Assembly: GCA_000063505.1 (NCBI GenBank)
Contig: CT971583.1
Span: forward strand, 1-64,000
Length of the DNA stretch: 64,000 nucleotides
From: Synechococcus sp. WH 7803
GTDB lineage: Bacteria; Cyanobacteriota; Cyanobacteriia; PCC-6307; Cyanobiaceae
Reading direction: 5' to 3'
The position numbers and the translations under genes are program-made. The notes beneath the pieces were generated by a model that was not told the origin of the DNA, made no database searches, and worked only from the letters and a program-made list of their open reading frames with translations. Numbering within the stretch: the stretch's first letter is position 1; each line of letters begins with the position of its first letter. Shown here piece by piece: positions 19,309-25,794 of this stretch.

Positions 19309-20539
19309 TCTGATCGTTGTTGGTGGTGGTCCTGCCGGAACGATGGCAGCGATCACCGCTGCCGAGCAGGGTCTGGAGCTGGTTCTGGTGCTCGAAGGCA
19401 CCCCGGAGCCCCTGCAGAAGGTGCGCATCAGTGGGGGCGGTCGCTGCAATGTGACCCATGCCTGCTGGGATCCGCGCGAGTTGGCCAGCCACTACCCTCG
19501 TGGCAGCAGACCCTTGCGTGGTCCGTTCAGTCGCTTCGCCTGTGGTGATGCGATCGCCTGGTTTGATGAACGGGGTCTCACCCTGGTGGAGGAGCCCGAC
19601 GGACGCCTGTTCCCCCAGGAGAACCGATCGGAAGCGGTGATCCGCTGCCTGCAGCAGGCGGCCGCTGCTGCCGGGGTGCAATGGCAGATGCGGGCGATGG
19701 TGCAGCAGATCACGCTCCATCCTGAAGGTGGGTTTCTGGTGGAGGGTCGCGGCCTGGAGCAGCCCCTGCGAGCCCGCAGCGTGATGCTGGCCACCGGCGG
19801 TCATCCCAGTGGCCGCAAGTTGGCTGCAGCGCTGGGTCACCAGGTGGTGCCACCGGTGCCGTCGCTGTTCAGCCTCTCGCTGCAGGCCTGCGAGCTCAGC
19901 GCTTGCAGCGGCATCGCCCTCAACGATGTGGGCTTGGACCTGAAGCTGGGTGATCAGCGCTTTCGCCAGACCGGCCGGGTGCTGATCACCCACCGGGGTT
20001 TGAGTGGACCTGCCACCCTGCGGCTTTCGGCGTTTGCGGCCCGGGCTCTGCATCAGAGCCATTACAAGGGTGATCTGAAGGTGGATTGGAGTGCTGGGCT
20101 GGGCCGCTCCGGGGTGGAGCAGCGCTTGCAGCAGTGGCGCCGGGAGCAGGCCCGGCGCACTGTGTCAGCTGCCAAGCCTTTGGACCACCTGCCGCGTCGT
20201 CTGTGGCAGGTTTTTCTGGCATTGGCTGGGGTGGAGGCGGAGCGGCGCTGGGCAGATCTGCCGCTCAAGGCCGAGCGTCAGCTGCTGGAGATTCTCTGCG
20301 CGCAGCGTCTGGCGATCCAGGGACGTGGTCCCTTTGGAGAGGAGTTTGTAACGGCTGGCGGTGTGGATCTCGGTGAGGTGAATCTGGCCACGATGGAAAG
20401 CCGCCGCTGCCCTGGTTTGTATCTGGCTGGTGAGTTGTTGGATGTGGATGGAGTGACCGGCGGCTTTAATTTCCAGGCCTGCTGGAGCGGCGGCTGGCTG
20501 GCTGGGATGGCGATTGCGGCGGCCAGTCGATCTGAGTGA
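19229..20539 (+). CDS. BaiN/HI0933-family FAD-dependent oxidoreductase
   Basis: About 436 residues at the longest. A dinucleotide fold begins with LIVVGGGPAGTMAAI, followed by the family motif ISGGGRCNVTHA and the C-terminal GVTGGFNFQACWSGGW. These mark the HI0933/BaiN-like flavoproteins; the physiological substrate of most members is unknown. The ATG at 19229 overlaps msrB by 80 bases. A TTG at 19283 would cut the overlap to 26 bases and place the FAD motif near the N-terminus, which is more usual. Probably co-transcribed with msrB, suggesting but not proving a redox link. Confidence 0.88.
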   Translation: MCSMTAPGQPVSATATTALPCASSLLDLIVVGGGPAGTMAAITAAEQGLELVLVLEGTPEPLQKVRISGGGRCNVTHACWDPRELASHYPRGSRPLRGPFSRFACGDAIAWFDERGLTLVEEPDGRLFPQENRSEAVIRCLQQAAAAAGVQWQMRAMVQQITLHPEGGFLVEGRGLEQPLRARSVMLATGGHPSGRKLAAALGHQVVPPVPSLFSLSLQACELSACSGIALNDVGLDLKLGDQRFRQTGRVLITHRGLSGPATLRLSAFAARALHQSHYKGDLKVDWSAGLGRSGVEQRLQQWRREQARRTVSAAKPLDHLPRRLWQVFLALAGVEAERRWADLPLKAERQLLEILCAQRLAIQGRGPFGEEFVTAGGVDLGEVNLATMESRRCPGLYLAGELLDVDGVTGGFNFQACWSGGWLAGMAIAAASRSE

Positions 20540-20551
20540 GATGACTTCATC

Positions 20552-20579
20552 AAAGCCTCCCCATGGAGGAGGAGGCCTT
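20552..20579. terminator. Possible bidirectional terminator hairpin
   Basis: AAAGCCTCC and GGAGGCCTT flank CCATGGAGGA in the 62-base gap between two convergent genes. GCCTCC/GGAGGC can pair, with one bulge in the longer version. There is no strong U-run, so support is modest. Confidence 0.35.
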
Positions 20580-20601
20580 GAATGACCTAACCGAACACTG
20601 A

Positions 20602-23600
20602 TTAAGTTAGTAAATCTGTTGAATTAGGGGTGAGATTACCCATTCCTCCAATCACTTCGAGAGTGGTTTGGATGCCCAGTTCATTGAGTTGATCGCTTGA
20701 CAGGAAGGTGCTGTTTCCGACCTCATCAACAACAAAGAAATTATCAAGAGTCCATGTTCCATTTTCGGAAAACTGGTTAAAGACAGCTTGATCGTTGTAG
20801 GTGCCATTGAGGAAATCTCCTGTGACCGGATCTGTGAACCCACCACCACTGACAAATTGATTGCCACTAGGGCTTGTCCATCGCGCAAATGAAATACCGC
20901 CTCCATCCCCATTAGCAAATGTTCCATCGAATACACCACTGATGTCATCGCGGATGGCAGCTGTGACATCAACGGTGACATCACCATCTGAGAGATCAAT
21001 GTTGTAATCAGAAAGTGTGTAGGAGAGGAGGTCGGGCGGTGTGGTGTCCTCTATTCCTCCGCTGCTAAAAATATCCCCAAAGACTGTTTCCCAACCGTCT
21101 TGAGCGAGTTGATCAGCGGATTTCCAGCCGGTGCTTGAGGAGATCAGTCCGGTGTTGTCTGTGGTCCAGACAAGGAATTGATCGGCGCGTGCCGTGCCAT
21201 CAGCGCCCTCGAGGAGAACGTTGAACCCGGAGCCATCCGTGGCTTGAACCGCTTGTGTGGCATCCCAGTTGGGGATGCCGGTAGTGGAGAAGGAACGCGT
21301 GCTGCCATCGGAGCGTTCTTTGGTGATGGTGAGTGGATCACCGCCATTGAAGAGTGTGTAAACAGAACGGTTGTCCACCAGGCCGTTGGCGTCGTTATCG
21401 ACTGCGGTGGGAACACCTGTGATGCCGTCATTGTTGAAGTCGGTTGAGAAGGGAGCTTCCCAGCCGTCTTGAGCGAGTTGATCAGCGGATTTCCAGCCGG
21501 TGCTTGAGGAGATCAGTCCGGTGTTGTCCGTGGTCCAGACAAGGAATTGATCAGCGCGTGCCGTGCCATCAGCACCCTCGAGGAGAACGTTGAACCCGGA
21601 GCCATCCGTGGCTTGAACTGCTTGTGTGGCATCCCAGTTGGGGATGCCTGTTGTGGAGAAGGAACGCGTGCTGCCATCGGAGCGTTCTTTGGTGATGGTG
21701 AGTGGATCACCGCCATTGAAGAGTGTGTAAACAGAGCGGTTGTCCACCAGGCCGTTGGCGTCGTTATCGACTGCGGTGGGAACACCTGTGATGCCGTCGT
21801 TGTTGAAGTCGGTTGAGAAGGGAGCTTCCCAGCCGTCTTGAGCGAGTTGATCAGCGGATTTCCAGCCGGTGCTTGAGGAGATCAGTCCGGTGTTGTCCGT
21901 GGTCCAGACAAGGAATTGATCAGCGCGTGCCGTGCCATCAGCACCCTCGAGGAGAACGTTGAACCCGGAGCCATCCGTGGCTTGAACTGCTTGTGTGGCA
22001 TCCCAGTTGGGGATGCCTGTTGTGGAGAAGGAACGCGTGCTGCCATCGGAGCGTTCTTTGGTGATGGTGAGTGGATCACCGCCATTGAAGAGTGTGTAAA
22101 CAGAGCGGTTGTCCACCAGGCCGTTGGCGTCGTTATCGGTGCTGCCGCTTTCGGGATCATTGATGGCAATTGACAGTGCATTACCCACAGGTGTTGTGAG
22201 GCTGCTATCGCTGTAGAGCTGAATCTTCAGGGTTTCATTGCCTTCGGCTTGTTGATCATCGGCAATGGTGACGTCAAAGCTGAGTTGGCCATTGGCATCC
22301 ACCACTCCGCTGCCACTGAGGGAAGAGGGATCAAGATCGCTGGCTTCGATGCTGTCACCTGAGAACTGCCAATAGAGGGTTGTGCCTTCCTCAAGATTGG
22401 TGGTGTTGACAGTTGCCGTTAGCGAATTGCCCTCCTGCAGCGCCTGCGCGGTTGCTGTGAGGGCATAGTTTGGCTGTAATGCATCGCTTCGATCAATCAC
22501 AAACGTGGATTGAATATTGGAATCAATAAGGAACTGATCCCACTGTGCTCCTGAGCTGAAGTTAGATCTTGAAAAAGAGAAAGAGTTACTGGCTTGATCT
22601 CGGCCATAAATTTGCGTGAGTTTCCACTCGCCGCTGGCAGCGAAGGCATTAATCTCACGGCTTTCAGTTACTGTGCCTGAGAGGAGGGAGCCCTGGATAA
22701 AGTCGTCTCGGCCTAGGTCGAAGTAAATCTGTTGTCCGGTTTCAACCGATTCAAAAGTGAGAAACACATCATCAAGACCGGATCCTTGATCAGTGAAGTC
22801 AACGTTCACGGTGAGGGAGGCCCCACCGGGTTGTGAGGGATCGAGGCGATCTGAACTGAGGCTGAGACTGTTGATGATGAGTGTGGATGTATCAGCCTGG
22901 GGGTTATCAATTACAAACGTGGATTGAATATTGGAATCAATAAGGAACTGATCCCACTGTGCTCCTGAGCTGAAGTTAGATCTTGAAAAAGAGAAAGAGT
23001 TACTGGCTTGATCTCGGCCATAAATTTGCGTGAGTTTCCACTCGCCGCTGGCAGCGAAGGCATTAATCTCACGGCTTTCAGTTACTGTGCCTGAGAGGAG
23101 GGAGCCCTGGATAAAGTCGTCTCGGCCTAGGTCGAAGTAAATCTGTTGTCCGGTTTCAACCGATTCAAAAGTGAGAAACACATCATCAAGACCGGATCCT
23201 TGATCAGTGAAGTCAACGTTCACGGTGAGGGAGGCCCCACCGGGTTGTGAGGGATCGAGGCGATCTGAACTGAGGCTGAGACTGTTGATGATGAGTGTGG
23301 ATGTATCAGCCTGGGGGTTATCAATTACAAACGTGGATTGAATATTGGAATCAATAAGGAACTGATCCCACTGTGCTCCTGAGCTGAAGTTAGATCTTGA
23401 AAAAGAGAAAGAGTTACTGGCTTGATCTCGGCCATAAATTTGCGTGAGTTTCCACTCGCCGCTGGCAGCGAAGGCATCAATCTCACGGCTTTCAGCCACT
23501 GTGCCTGAGAGGAGGGAGCCCTGGATAAAGTCGTCTCGGCCTAGGTCGAAGTAAATCTGTTGTCCGGTTTCAACCGATTCAAAAGTGAGAAACACATCAT

Positions 23601-24168
23601 CAAGACCGGATCCTTGATCAGTGAAGTCAACGTTCACGGTGAGGAAGGCCCCACCGGGTTGTGAGGGATCGAGGCGATCTGAACTGAGGCTGAGACTGTT
23701 GATGATGGGTGTGGATGTGTCTTCAGGTCTAAGGGCTTCTTGAGTTGTGTTGTTCACAACAAATGAGAGAGCACTTTGGTCGATATTCAAGGCATCGAGC
23801 TGCTCAAACCAGATGGCGTCAGTGGGAAAATCATCGCGATAGAGGTCGAAGCCATTACCTGCTTGATCGCGTGTGCTCAGGGAGCTCAATGTCCATTGAC
23901 CGTTAGCAGTGAATTGATCGAGTTCCCTGCTGCTCTGAATCGTTCCAGCCAGAGCATTGCCATCAATGGCATCTCCTAGGCCGAAATACAGAGATACTCG
24001 TTGGTCACTGGTTGTCGATTGATAAGAGAGTATGATGTATTCCAGACCAGATAAATCAGAGAAGCTGATTGATCCCGCGAGGAACGCTCCTCCTGGTGCT
24101 GAAGGATCAAGATCGGTGGAGTTGAGAGAAGCGCTAGTAAGGGTTGGTGCCTGGACGTCGCTGGTCAA
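20602..24168 (-). CDS. Large tandem-repeat surface/secreted protein (Ig-like and Trp-rich repeats)
   Basis: A 1188-residue acidic protein with no signal peptide or membrane segment. In order: a divergent Ig-like beta unit (about 1-146), three near-identical 138-residue copies of it (about 147-560; each starts with INSLSLSSDRLDPSQPGG), a Calx-beta-like domain (about 561-677), three 123-residue copies (about 678-1034; NDANGLVDNRSVYTLFNGGD to DGWE) resembling the Trp-rich C-terminal domain of cyanobacterial proteins (PF07483-like), and a final Ig-like unit. I infer an extracellular or cell-surface protein, possibly type I secreted. Start is TTG 24168 after an in-frame stop, so it is uncertain. 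DNA is visibly more AT-rich than its neighbours. No secretion genes are nearby. Confidence 0.87.
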   Translation of the reverse strand: MTSDVQAPTLTSASLNSTDLDPSAPGGAFLAGSISFSDLSGLEYIILSYQSTTSDQRVSLYFGLGDAIDGNALAGTIQSSRELDQFTANGQWTLSSLSTRDQAGNGFDLYRDDFPTDAIWFEQLDALNIDQSALSFVVNNTTQEALRPEDTSTPIINSLSLSSDRLDPSQPGGAFLTVNVDFTDQGSGLDDVFLTFESVETGQQIYFDLGRDDFIQGSLLSGTVAESREIDAFAASGEWKLTQIYGRDQASNSFSFSRSNFSSGAQWDQFLIDSNIQSTFVIDNPQADTSTLIINSLSLSSDRLDPSQPGGASLTVNVDFTDQGSGLDDVFLTFESVETGQQIYFDLGRDDFIQGSLLSGTVTESREINAFAASGEWKLTQIYGRDQASNSFSFSRSNFSSGAQWDQFLIDSNIQSTFVIDNPQADTSTLIINSLSLSSDRLDPSQPGGASLTVNVDFTDQGSGLDDVFLTFESVETGQQIYFDLGRDDFIQGSLLSGTVTESREINAFAASGEWKLTQIYGRDQASNSFSFSRSNFSSGAQWDQFLIDSNIQSTFVIDRSDALQPNYALTATAQALQEGNSLTATVNTTNLEEGTTLYWQFSGDSIEASDLDPSSLSGSGVVDANGQLSFDVTIADDQQAEGNETLKIQLYSDSSLTTPVGNALSIAINDPESGSTDNDANGLVDNRSVYTLFNGGDPLTITKERSDGSTRSFSTTGIPNWDATQAVQATDGSGFNVLLEGADGTARADQFLVWTTDNTGLISSSTGWKSADQLAQDGWEAPFSTDFNNDGITGVPTAVDNDANGLVDNRSVYTLFNGGDPLTITKERSDGSTRSFSTTGIPNWDATQAVQATDGSGFNVLLEGADGTARADQFLVWTTDNTGLISSSTGWKSADQLAQDGWEAPFSTDFNNDGITGVPTAVDNDANGLVDNRSVYTLFNGGDPLTITKERSDGSTRSFSTTGIPNWDATQAVQATDGSGFNVLLEGADGTARADQFLVWTTDNTGLISSSTGWKSADQLAQDGWETVFGDIFSSGGIEDTTPPDLLSYTLSDYNIDLSDGDVTVDVTAAIRDDISGVFDGTFANGDGGGISFARWTSPSGNQFVSGGGFTDPVTGDFLNGTYNDQAVFNQFSENGTWTLDNFFVVDEVGNSTFLSSDQLNELGIQTTLEVIGGMGNLTPNSTDLLT
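21069..22137 (-). repeat. Three tandem 369-bp repeats (123-residue Trp-rich units)
   Basis: The same sequence recurs every 369 bases: for example, the stretch that includes GAGCGTTCTTTGGTGATGG is at about 21311, 21680 and 22049. The two upstream copies in the gene (about 21400-22137) are almost identical at DNA level; the C-terminal-most copy differs by several silent and few other bases and runs into the unique DGWETVFGDIF end. The period is a multiple of three, so copy number can change without frameshift. Confidence 0.9.
22488..23729 (-). repeat. Three tandem 414-bp repeats (138-residue Ig-like units)
   Basis: GTGTGGATGT recurs at 22881, 23295 and 23709, a period of 414 bases. The copies at about 22488-22901 and 22902-23315 look identical base for base. 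The copy at about 23316-23729 differs at a few sites (GAFLTV against GASLTV, AESREID against TESREIN). A more diverged fourth copy lies upstream at 23730-24168. This indicates recent duplication or gene conversion. Confidence 0.9.
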
Positions 24169-24250
24169 AATTAAGGCGTCTTAAAATAAATCTCGGTGAG
24201 ATTCGCGCGCACTTGCTTTCTGAGTCAACCCTTCAGCTGTAGGTGATTGA

Positions 24251-24278
24251 TATATATCTAGTAGCAACTTAAAGTCAA
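24251..24278 (-). promoter_or_regulatory. Candidate sigma-70-type promoter for the repeat protein
   Basis: On the minus strand, TTGACT (24278-24273) is followed after 16 bases by TATATA (24256-24251), about 80 bases upstream of the repeat-protein start. It lies in the 195-base AT-rich gap between pilC and the repeat gene, which holds no other gene I can see. Confidence 0.45.
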
Positions 24279-24363
24279 CTTTGTTGTTTCTGAAATTCGT
24301 CTGAGTATTGTCAGAAATTTTGCTGAGAGCAGCGTGCTTTGCGGGCTTGATTGCCTGCTGACG

Positions 24364-25794
24364 CTATTGAATCTGATCAAACACGGTGAACATCGGCAGG
24401 TACATCGCCAGCAGGATGGAGCCCACAATGCCGCCCACCACCACGATCATCGCGGGTTCAAGCATCGAGGTGAGCGCCTTCACGGATGCCGAAACCTCGT
24501 CTTCGTAGAAGTCGGCCACCTTGCTGAGCATCTGGTCCATCTCACCGGTTTCCTCGCCGATCGAGAGCATGCTCAAGGCCATCTCCGGCAGCACTTTCTG
24601 GCGGGTGAGCGCTGTGCTCAGCAGCACGCCTTCCTGCACCAGGCCGCGCGATTCCAGGATGGCGTCGGAAATGATGGAGTTGCCTGCGGTTTCGCTGGAG
24701 ATCTCAAGCGACATCAAGATCGGTACGCCAGCGCGGGTGAGTGAACTGAAAATCCGGCAGAACTGGGCGGTGGCGGTTTTCATGATCAAGTCGCCAAACA
24801 GCGGAACTTTGAGCATCAGGCGATCAATCACCCGGCGGCCCTTGTGGGTGGCGTAGTAGCGGCTGAACAGCCAGATCCCCACCAGCAGCACTCCAGCGAA
24901 GACGAGTGCTGCCGAAGAGCGCAGCAGTTTGCTCAGGTCCACCATCAGCTGCGTGAACAAGGGCAGTTCGGCCCCCAGGTCTTCGAAGATCCCCGCAAAG
25001 GTGGGAATCAGAAAGATGGTCATTCCCAGGAACACCAGAATCGCGATCACCAGAACGGCCACTGGGTAGCCCAGGGCTCCTTTGATCTGGTTCTGCAAGC
25101 GGGCGTTGTCTTCCAGAAGTTTGGCCAGGCGCTTGAGTGATTCATCGAGCACGCCGCCCGCCTCGCCGGCGTCCACCATGGCCACGGTGAGTTGATCAAA
25201 CACCTTCGGCCACTGGCGCATGGCAGCTCCCATGGCTGTGCCCTGGTTCACTTCCAATCCCACGGCGGTGAGCGCCTTCTTGAACATCGGCAGCTTCTGC
25301 TGGGTGGCCATCAGATCGAGGCTGCGCACGATCGGTACGCCGGCATCCACCAGCGCGGCCAGCTTGCTGGCCCACACCGCTTTGTCTTTCACGCCAGGGG
25401 GCTTTTGCAGTGCTTCCTCGAGGGTTTGAAGAAATCCGGATCGGTTGCTTGGTTTGCTTTCGTTGGCGTTGCTGTCTTTACCGGTTGGGTTGATGGCTAA
25501 GGCGATTGATTCTGCGCGTAGGCCAGAACGTCTGAGTTGTTTTTTGGCAGCGGCAGGATTGGGTGCATCGATGGTTACGGTGCGCTTCTTGCCTTTCACC
25601 GTGATGCAGTGAGCCTCGAAGCGCTGGGTGCGTGGTGCTTGTGCCGGTTTTTTGTCGTTATGGATTTCAACTTGAATGGGTTTTAAGCCACGTCGTCTCA
25701 GATTCTGTTTTGCTGTTGATTCATCCTTGGCATCAAGAATTCTGCTTGCTCTTTGGCCTTCTTGATTAATATAAACAGCTCGATACTTCGTCAT
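24364..25794 (-). CDS. pilC: Type IV pilus inner-membrane platform protein PilC
   Basis: PilC is the inner-membrane platform on which the PilB and PilT motors act. Two GspF/T2SSF domains are visible: the first with KDKAVWASKLAALVDAGVPI, the second with FCRIFSSLTRAGVPILMSLE. Hydrophobic segments lie near residues 240-270, 290-310 and at the C-terminus (MIVVVGGIVGSILLAMYLPM). The ATG at 25794 is preferred over the open frame to 26064, which overlaps pilT. At 476 residues it is longer than the usual 400-410, because the N-terminal beta-alpha-beta module occurs twice (residues about 4-44 and 59-99). Last gene of pilB-pilT-pilC. Confidence 0.94.
   Translation of the reverse strand: MTKYRAVYINQEGQRASRILDAKDESTAKQNLRRRGLKPIQVEIHNDKKPAQAPRTQRFEAHCITVKGKKRTVTIDAPNPAAAKKQLRRSGLRAESIALAINPTGKDSNANESKPSNRSGFLQTLEEALQKPPGVKDKAVWASKLAALVDAGVPIVRSLDLMATQQKLPMFKKALTAVGLEVNQGTAMGAAMRQWPKVFDQLTVAMVDAGEAGGVLDESLKRLAKLLEDNARLQNQIKGALGYPVAVLVIAILVFLGMTIFLIPTFAGIFEDLGAELPLFTQLMVDLSKLLRSSAALVFAGVLLVGIWLFSRYYATHKGRRVIDRLMLKVPLFGDLIMKTATAQFCRIFSSLTRAGVPILMSLEISSETAGNSIISDAILESRGLVQEGVLLSTALTRQKVLPEMALSMLSIGEETGEMDQMLSKVADFYEDEVSASVKALTSMLEPAMIVVVGGIVGSILLAMYLPMFTVFDQIQ

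Follow-up and report, generated by a model that had tools for sequence, protein, structure and literature searches.

A lineage-restricted gene beside pilC in Synechococcus sp. WH 7803 encodes a modular, probably exported protein of multiplied Ig-type and Trp-rich units

What kind of protein is encoded by a long gene that lies between two conserved neighbors, a flavoprotein gene and pilC, in Synechococcus sp. WH 7803 and is absent from this place in most of its relatives? We addressed this question in the first 64,000 nucleotides (the window) of the genome, a single contig of 2,366,980 bases (2.37 Mb and 60.2% GC as described in PMC2441476). The gene is read from the minus strand and encodes 1188 residues. 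The evidence favors a reading, held at a probability of about 55%, in which the product is an extracellular modular protein exported by type I secretion, with a stalk of immunoglobulin (Ig)-type units and Trp-rich binding modules, and the gene arose as a lineage-restricted single-gene insertion.

An earlier note, made from the nucleotide letters alone, had described one large gene with two different tandem expansions at 20602-24168, and both points were borne out. A single open frame without internal stops runs from a TTG at 24168 to the stop at 20602-20604, and direct repeats are evident in the DNA, three copies at a spacing of 414 nt (99–100% identical over 300 nt) and three at 369 nt (97% over 300 nt); chance cannot explain these repeats. 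The encoded order is Ig unit A, units B2, B3 and B4, a middle domain, Trp-rich units W1, W2 and W3, Ig unit C, and a short tail (Table 1). The full B units are 96.1–98.6% identical in nucleotides and 94–99% in residues. W1 and W2 share 368 of 369 nucleotides and 100% of residues, and W3 is only ~91% identical to them in nucleotides because its end has diverged. A single Ig profile finds five Ig-type units, as the note had expected; its uniform length of 138 residues does not extend to unit A (147 residues, 41% identical to B), and C is 27–30% identical to A or B. Similarly, of the three Trp-rich units claimed at 123 residues, W1 and W2 have that length and W3, with its diverged end, has 117.

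The gene order around the target, confirmed by Pfam for the neighbors, reads msrB (SelR), HI0933-like flavoprotein, the target gene, pilC, pilT, pilB, grpE, and dnaJ. Of the 31 genomes in the genus set, 27 gave a pilC match, and in 26 this is the true locus, the match in G016 being a 36% paralogue. In 24 of these 26, pilC sits immediately next to the flavoprotein gene; a gene intervenes only in the window genome and in G001. G022, 93% identical in nucleotides to the window on both sides, lacks one stretch (Table 1) and presents a clean empty site. The target is a lineage-restricted single-gene insertion, in keeping with the earlier view of a lineage-specific type. On trees of pilC and of the flavoprotein (25 genomes each, without G017, whose pilC is partial) the two carriers do not group as sisters, and supported branches force at least two changes. 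The nearest rows to the window genome on the pilC tree, G022 and G006, lack the gene, and on the flavoprotein tree the window genome (G000) falls in an unresolved group of four that includes G022. The pattern could stem from two separate insertions, from transfer, or from a single old gain followed by many losses; the units of the two carriers are only 49–72% identical in residues, so they did not exchange the gene recently. The DNA is AT-richer, as noted earlier (GC 51.6%; GC at third codon positions, GC3, 52.8% versus 71–74% in the four neighbors tested). GC3 is 43–54% in the G001 gene and four other Trp-rich genes, and the giant open reading frames (ORFs) of marine Synechococcus are also described as deviant in composition (PMC2441476), so low GC3 may be a trait of the gene class rather than proof of recent transfer.

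The G001 syntenic protein contains three A, three B, and two Trp-rich units and has neither a middle domain nor a C unit. Within a species, units of one type are 92–100% identical in residues, except for the G001 Trp-rich units (74%); between the window genome and G001, identity is 54% for A, 49–53% for B, and 64–72% for the Trp-rich units. Units alike within a species and diverged across species indicate that A and B predate the split of the gene and were each later multiplied or homogenized per lineage. The two lineages thus expanded the same unit types independently. At a larger scale, the Ig profile (A6) matches 13 and the Trp-rich profile (A2) 25 of 400 family genomes, and the PF07483 profile at E 1e-5 finds 20 of 292 phylum genomes, WH 7803 not among them.

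Three genera have proteins in which an Ig array comes first and a Trp-rich array second: the window and G001 proteins, two proteins of G062 (L161 and L162), and one of G343 (L159, interrupted by a masked stretch). Between the arrays, L162 carries a Calx-beta domain above cut-off and L159 one just below (24.6 of 27 bits). L158, from a fourth genus (G213), has its arrays in this sequence too, though its Ig units score weakly (12 and 29 bits). In L030 and L163, Ig units occur with no Trp-rich match; contig ends truncate L160 and L176, and Ig matches in G103, G108, G292, G294, and G352 fell outside this comparison. The earlier statement that no homologue of known function could be named is therefore amended by the syntenic relative, by proteins of the same order in other genera, and by an exoprotein of Synechococcus WH7805 considered below. 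In several relatives S8 or M10 peptidase domains are joined to Trp-rich arrays, and the target could accordingly be the leftover of a secreted protease that lost its catalytic domain and kept accessory arrays with no binding role of their own. We consider this improbable: the Ig-then-Trp-rich plan recurs in the G001, G062 (two), and G343 proteins, Pfam scans of the target, G001, L161, L162, and L159 proteins gave no peptidase, and the target combines an intact frame with recently multiplied units.

Pfam scores for the target exceed the cut-offs of DUF7035 (PF23034; 32 bits, cut-off 27), Ig_DR_A0283-like (PF24025; 29.2 bits, cut-off 27.1), and W_rich_C (PF07483; 29 bits for the whole protein, cut-off 26.2), the last in agreement with the resemblance proposed before. 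The Trp-rich units pass the PF07483 cut-off together, and tandem matches in one ORF are common among the genomes listed; a single window unit, however, reached 20.2 bits in the genome search, which suggests that the picocyanobacterial units are a diverged subtype, and unlike a C-terminal array the target's is followed by 147 residues. By these scores DUF7035/PF23034 is the better name for the Ig unit. No paper turned up in a literature search on DUF7035, PF23034, and DUF7743, so the label gives the target no function. Unit C leans to DUF7743 (PF24893), below cut-off. Outside Pfam, the single NCBIfam match scored far below the cut-off (TIGR02267, 29.6 versus 60, E 7e-7), PHROGs gave weak matches only (best E 0.0011), and Protein Data Bank (PDB) sequence searches gave none for the whole protein and none convincing for the Ig profile (best E 0.8).

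An AlphaFold2 model of the 138-residue Ig unit, built from four of the window units, consists mostly of strands plus one helix and has a high predicted local distance difference test score (pLDDT 92.5). Structures matching it include the Cwp6 Ig-like domain (Z 9.2), GbpA (8.8), a PKD domain (8.0), RbmA (8.0), and the adhesin extender 6xi3 (7.7), with many enzymes and complement proteins at comparable Z, middling values of this kind being common; the top two Foldseek matches (E below 0.001) are NPC2 and NIS1. The model supports an Ig-like β-sandwich as the predicted fold class, with no function implied. Five DxDxDG-type loops occur in the target versus a mean of 0.079 in 1000 shuffles, none of which had five, and the Trp-rich units start, and mostly end, with such loops.

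The Calx-beta-like domain of the earlier note did not hold up. PF03160 was rejected as a firm label for the middle domain, at 12.9 bits against a cut-off of 27, and a profile comparison with the Calx-beta domains of L162 and L159 gave a probability of 1.5%; the low score and the position between the arrays suggest a Calx-beta-like character only weakly. Its match in cyanophage P-SSM2 (Table 1), PSSM2_126, is a hypothetical protein that sits between the two terminase genes of the phage. A tblastn search in phages returned five records covering only the middle domain and its edges, and one in plasmids returned 1 weak match. Searches of contig collections for related loci found no relatives among genome or viral contigs.

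How might such a protein leave the cell? In line with the earlier statement that signal peptide and membrane segment are lacking, the highest 19-residue Kyte-Doolittle mean in the target is 1.25, versus 3.16 in the membrane control PilC; by hydropathy alone, it has neither a hydrophobic N-terminus nor a membrane segment. The same scan of 39 Ig or Trp-rich ORFs revealed no Sec-like hydrophobic stretch within the first 60 residues of any (highest 1.25), taking the first possible codon as the start and including some ORFs cut by contig ends. Absence of a Sec signal by hydropathy, acidity (168 D+E versus 45 K+R), and absence of cysteine fit type I secretion substrates; the target differs from them in having no RTX nonapeptide repeats and no adjacent exporter genes, which only some relatives have.

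A look for type I secretion genes, as the earlier note had suggested, revealed two loci in WH 7803 that pair an ABC gene with HlyD, at ~2.295-2.299 Mb and 0.140-0.145 Mb (HlyD matches below the TIGR01843 and above the Pfam HlyD_3 cut-off), and OEP/TolC-family genes. Among 45 Trp-rich loci, six (L031, L115, L128, L164, L172, and L175) have such a pair within the stretch retrieved, with 0.62 expected at the WH 7803 density (Poisson P 0.00005); lone or distant ABC genes (L110, L112, L165, L176) were excluded and the window was counted as a miss. The Trp-rich genes of L115 and L128 start 81 and 73 bases after HlyD on the same strand, and their products contain RTX repeats together with an M10 C-terminal domain and Trp-rich units. 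L028 encodes 1961 residues with five tandem Trp-rich units and S8, M10, and cadherin-like domains, and from length and domain match is probably EAR17767.1, reported at 0.67% of the Synechococcus WH7805 exoproteome (PMC4949707). This protein resembles the target in its tandem Trp-rich units and in lacking a Sec-like N-terminus by hydropathy; it differs in its peptidase and cadherin-like domains, in having no Ig-profile match, and in units 38% identical to the target's. If the identification is right, this report is the sole experimental support for export, and it concerns a relative, not the target. From the exporter loci and the Trp-rich neighbors, the secretion proposed earlier appears probable, and type I is its likely route.

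The same loci bear on another reading, in which the Trp-rich unit is mainly a type I secretion signal and not a binding module. Besides the six exporter pairs, the position of the last unit would fit: counting units over 25 bits, 12 of the 31 ORFs with Trp-rich units have no more than 19 residues between it and the C-terminus, and six have 0-1. In 17 of the 31, however, the array lies away from the C-terminus and begins somewhere in the first 140 residues, the target has an Ig unit after its array, and a signal needs no tandem multiplication. We rate this reading no higher than the protease leftover.

Under the favored reading of an exported stalk with binding modules, the unfolded protein, without a Sec-like N-terminus, would exit via one of the two ABC and HlyD exporters and a TolC-type channel. 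Calcium from seawater would be bound by the DxDxDG loops, locking the chain; the Ig units would form the stalk, and the tandem Trp-rich units would serve as aromatic modules, probably with affinity for glycans or surfaces, by which the protein is anchored at the cell surface or to a target. Recombination between near-identical copies could adjust the number of units, and length and avidity would thus shift quickly between strains, with attachment or shielding from grazers or phages as possible outcomes.

Several observations weigh against this reading. Neither WH 7803 exporter locus is near the target, and 39 of the 45 Trp-rich loci have no exporter pair; the loci are not independent (L031 and L175 share a chromosomal position), contig ends truncate some of them, and, the density of pairs in other genomes being assumed rather than measured, P rises to 0.002 at twice the WH 7803 density. 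In neither the target nor the G001 protein did Pfam find an RTX (HemolysinCabind) match, and no C-terminal secretion signal was recognized. The tandem arrays and their aromatic residues are the only pointers to a binding role; structure prediction, successful for the Ig unit, was poor for the Trp-rich unit (pLDDT 50.1), and the PDB search with the Trp-rich profile reached a best E of 0.63, with no convincing match. A literature search by locus tag, supplementary tables lying outside it, found no paper naming the gene.

The place of the gene directly downstream of pilB-pilT-pilC on the same strand suggests an accessory or tip adhesin of the type IV pilus, the more so as the G001 relative occupies the same place and WH 7803 is reported to make abundant pili (PMC7994388). 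Co-transcription with pilC, whose stop at 24364 is separated from the target start by 195 bases, is possible. Nevertheless, the product has no prepilin or Sec-like N-terminus, the gene is missing from 24 of the 26 genomes of the genus that have this pilC locus, and its Trp-rich relatives lie near type I exporters in six loci; we therefore rejected a pilus protein as unlikely, more so than the protease-leftover or secretion-signal readings. Equally hard to sustain is a cryptic, unexpressed insertion drifting to loss, to which the weak TTG start, a coding strand without a consensus promoter in our scan, the gene being named in no paper found, and its rarity (2/26) might point, given that the 1188-codon frame is intact and that of the G001 relative, with units 49–72% identical, also stays open.

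The Trp-rich arrays themselves appear to be copied. In G003, L028 (5906-11791) and L029 (752-10384), ~830 kb apart, encode different large proteins and share a 2,047-base stretch that includes the Trp-rich array at 96.4% nucleotide identity, with first units 100% identical. The first four units of L025, in WH 7803, are 99–100% and the first five of L027 96–100% identical in nucleotides. Nucleotide identity this high suggests that the units were duplicated, or homogenized by gene conversion, only recently. For the target, copying between genes is not seen within WH 7803, its units being only 44–45% identical to those of L025, which counts against such copying. Tentatively, and well short of even odds, the picocyanobacterial Trp-rich unit could be a mobile, self-homogenizing surface-binding cassette of type I-exported proteins, whose arrays multiply within genes and are copied between unrelated genes of one genome, giving fast-changing strain-specific surface sets against grazers or phages. 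If so, its effect would be comparable to antigenic length variation. L025 (5096-8035; WH 7803 1535095-1538034) encodes 979 residues with a HEIGH metalloprotease-like motif, in which Pfam found no peptidase, a cadherin-like domain, and five Trp-rich units, the array ending exactly at the C-terminus.

The target is an intact, lineage-restricted gene of a known kind, the large modular exported proteins of marine picocyanobacteria. The interpretation in the earlier note is partly supported. Closely related marine picocyanobacteria are reported to differ most in exported proteins, many of them uncharacterized (PMC4949707), and the target is one of many strain-specific, probably exported surface proteins of marine Synechococcus. 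Giant ORFs and SwmB, likened here to the target by description only, share uneven distribution, deviant composition, and very large size (PMC2441476, PMC7522525, as far as these describe the class); at 3.6 kb the target lies under the 5,016-bp lower end of the class and has a simple two-array plan. More notable than the gene itself is the evidence that Trp-rich arrays are rapidly copied, in one case between genes separated by 830 kb. The data also link PF07483-type arrays to type I exporters. The locus offers a clean single-gene presence/absence site between close relatives, and the export route and a role in grazing or attachment become testable in WH 7803, a strain with a published pilus knockout mutant (PMC7994388).

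Table 1. Features of the target gene and its locus, in window coordinates.
Feature	Coordinates	Strand	Evidence
Coding sequence, 1188 aa, TTG start	20602..24168	-	ORF reading; SynWH7803_0018 by gene counting
Ig unit A, aa 2-147	23728..24165	-	Ig profile 180 bits (profile seeded with unit A); 54% aa to G001 A units
Ig unit B2, aa 148-285, DUF7035/PF23034-like	23314..23727	-	repeats, Pfam; structure model pLDDT 92.5
Ig unit B3, aa 286-423	22900..23313	-	97.6% nt to B2
Ig unit B4, aa 424-561	22486..22899	-	98.6% nt to B3
Middle domain, aa 562-677 (116 aa)	22138..22485	-	Calx-beta 12.9 bits, below cut-off; P-SSM2 PSSM2_126 42.5% over 106 aa
Trp-rich unit 1, aa 678-800 (123 aa), W_rich_C-type	21769..22137	-	DxDxNG loop at start, DxNxDG loop near end
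Trp-rich unit 2, aa 801-923 (123 aa)	21400..21768	-	368/369 nt identical to unit 1
Trp-rich unit 3, aa 924-1040 (117 aa)	21049..21399	-	terminal DxNxDG loop lost
Ig unit C, aa 1039-1175	20644..21054	-	Ig profile 124 bits (profile seeded with unit C); 48% aa to N-terminal unit of G016 L030
13-residue tail	20605..20643	-	no RTX match anywhere in target protein
Stretch absent from G022 (empty site)	20518..24364		boundaries from blastn

The target should be SynWH7803_0018, because the gene order in the window fits between msrB and DnaJ, listed as SYNWH7803_0016 and SYNWH7803_0023 in a table of PMC5931967. The gene is not named in the passages of PMC5839243 considered, and a literature search on PF07483 or Trp-rich Synechococcus proteins returned nothing concerning it. 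The start position is supported by relatives: the G001 ATG is one residue off in the alignment (M-SDTQAP versus M-TSDVQAP), and the G016 protein L030 likewise begins with an Ig unit (MSSDITAP). The promoter and terminator scan found no site on the coding strand of the target and fewer sites than in shuffles; TTGACT-N17-ATATAT at 24278-24250, spotted by eye, was not counted as promoter evidence.

Two further observations concern Trp-rich genes elsewhere. A pyrG-queC neighborhood, confirmed by Pfam in L041 and recognized by eye at the other loci (L031, L175, L027, L118, L120, L122, L123, L127), holds a type I exporter, a Trp-rich gene, or both; in the two that were scanned, L027 and L031, the Trp-rich gene encodes an S8 protease. 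The gene at L175 5892-6500, which has no Pfam match at E 1e-10, we take to be QueE. Proteins of ~600 residues with one Trp-rich unit 15–19 residues from the C-terminus are encoded by L026 (6361-8211), L111 (9150-10964), L114 (8958-10730), and L116 (9466-11199), and the gene next to that of L026 is, by eye, a candidate for a chitinase-like or other carbohydrate-binding secreted protein.

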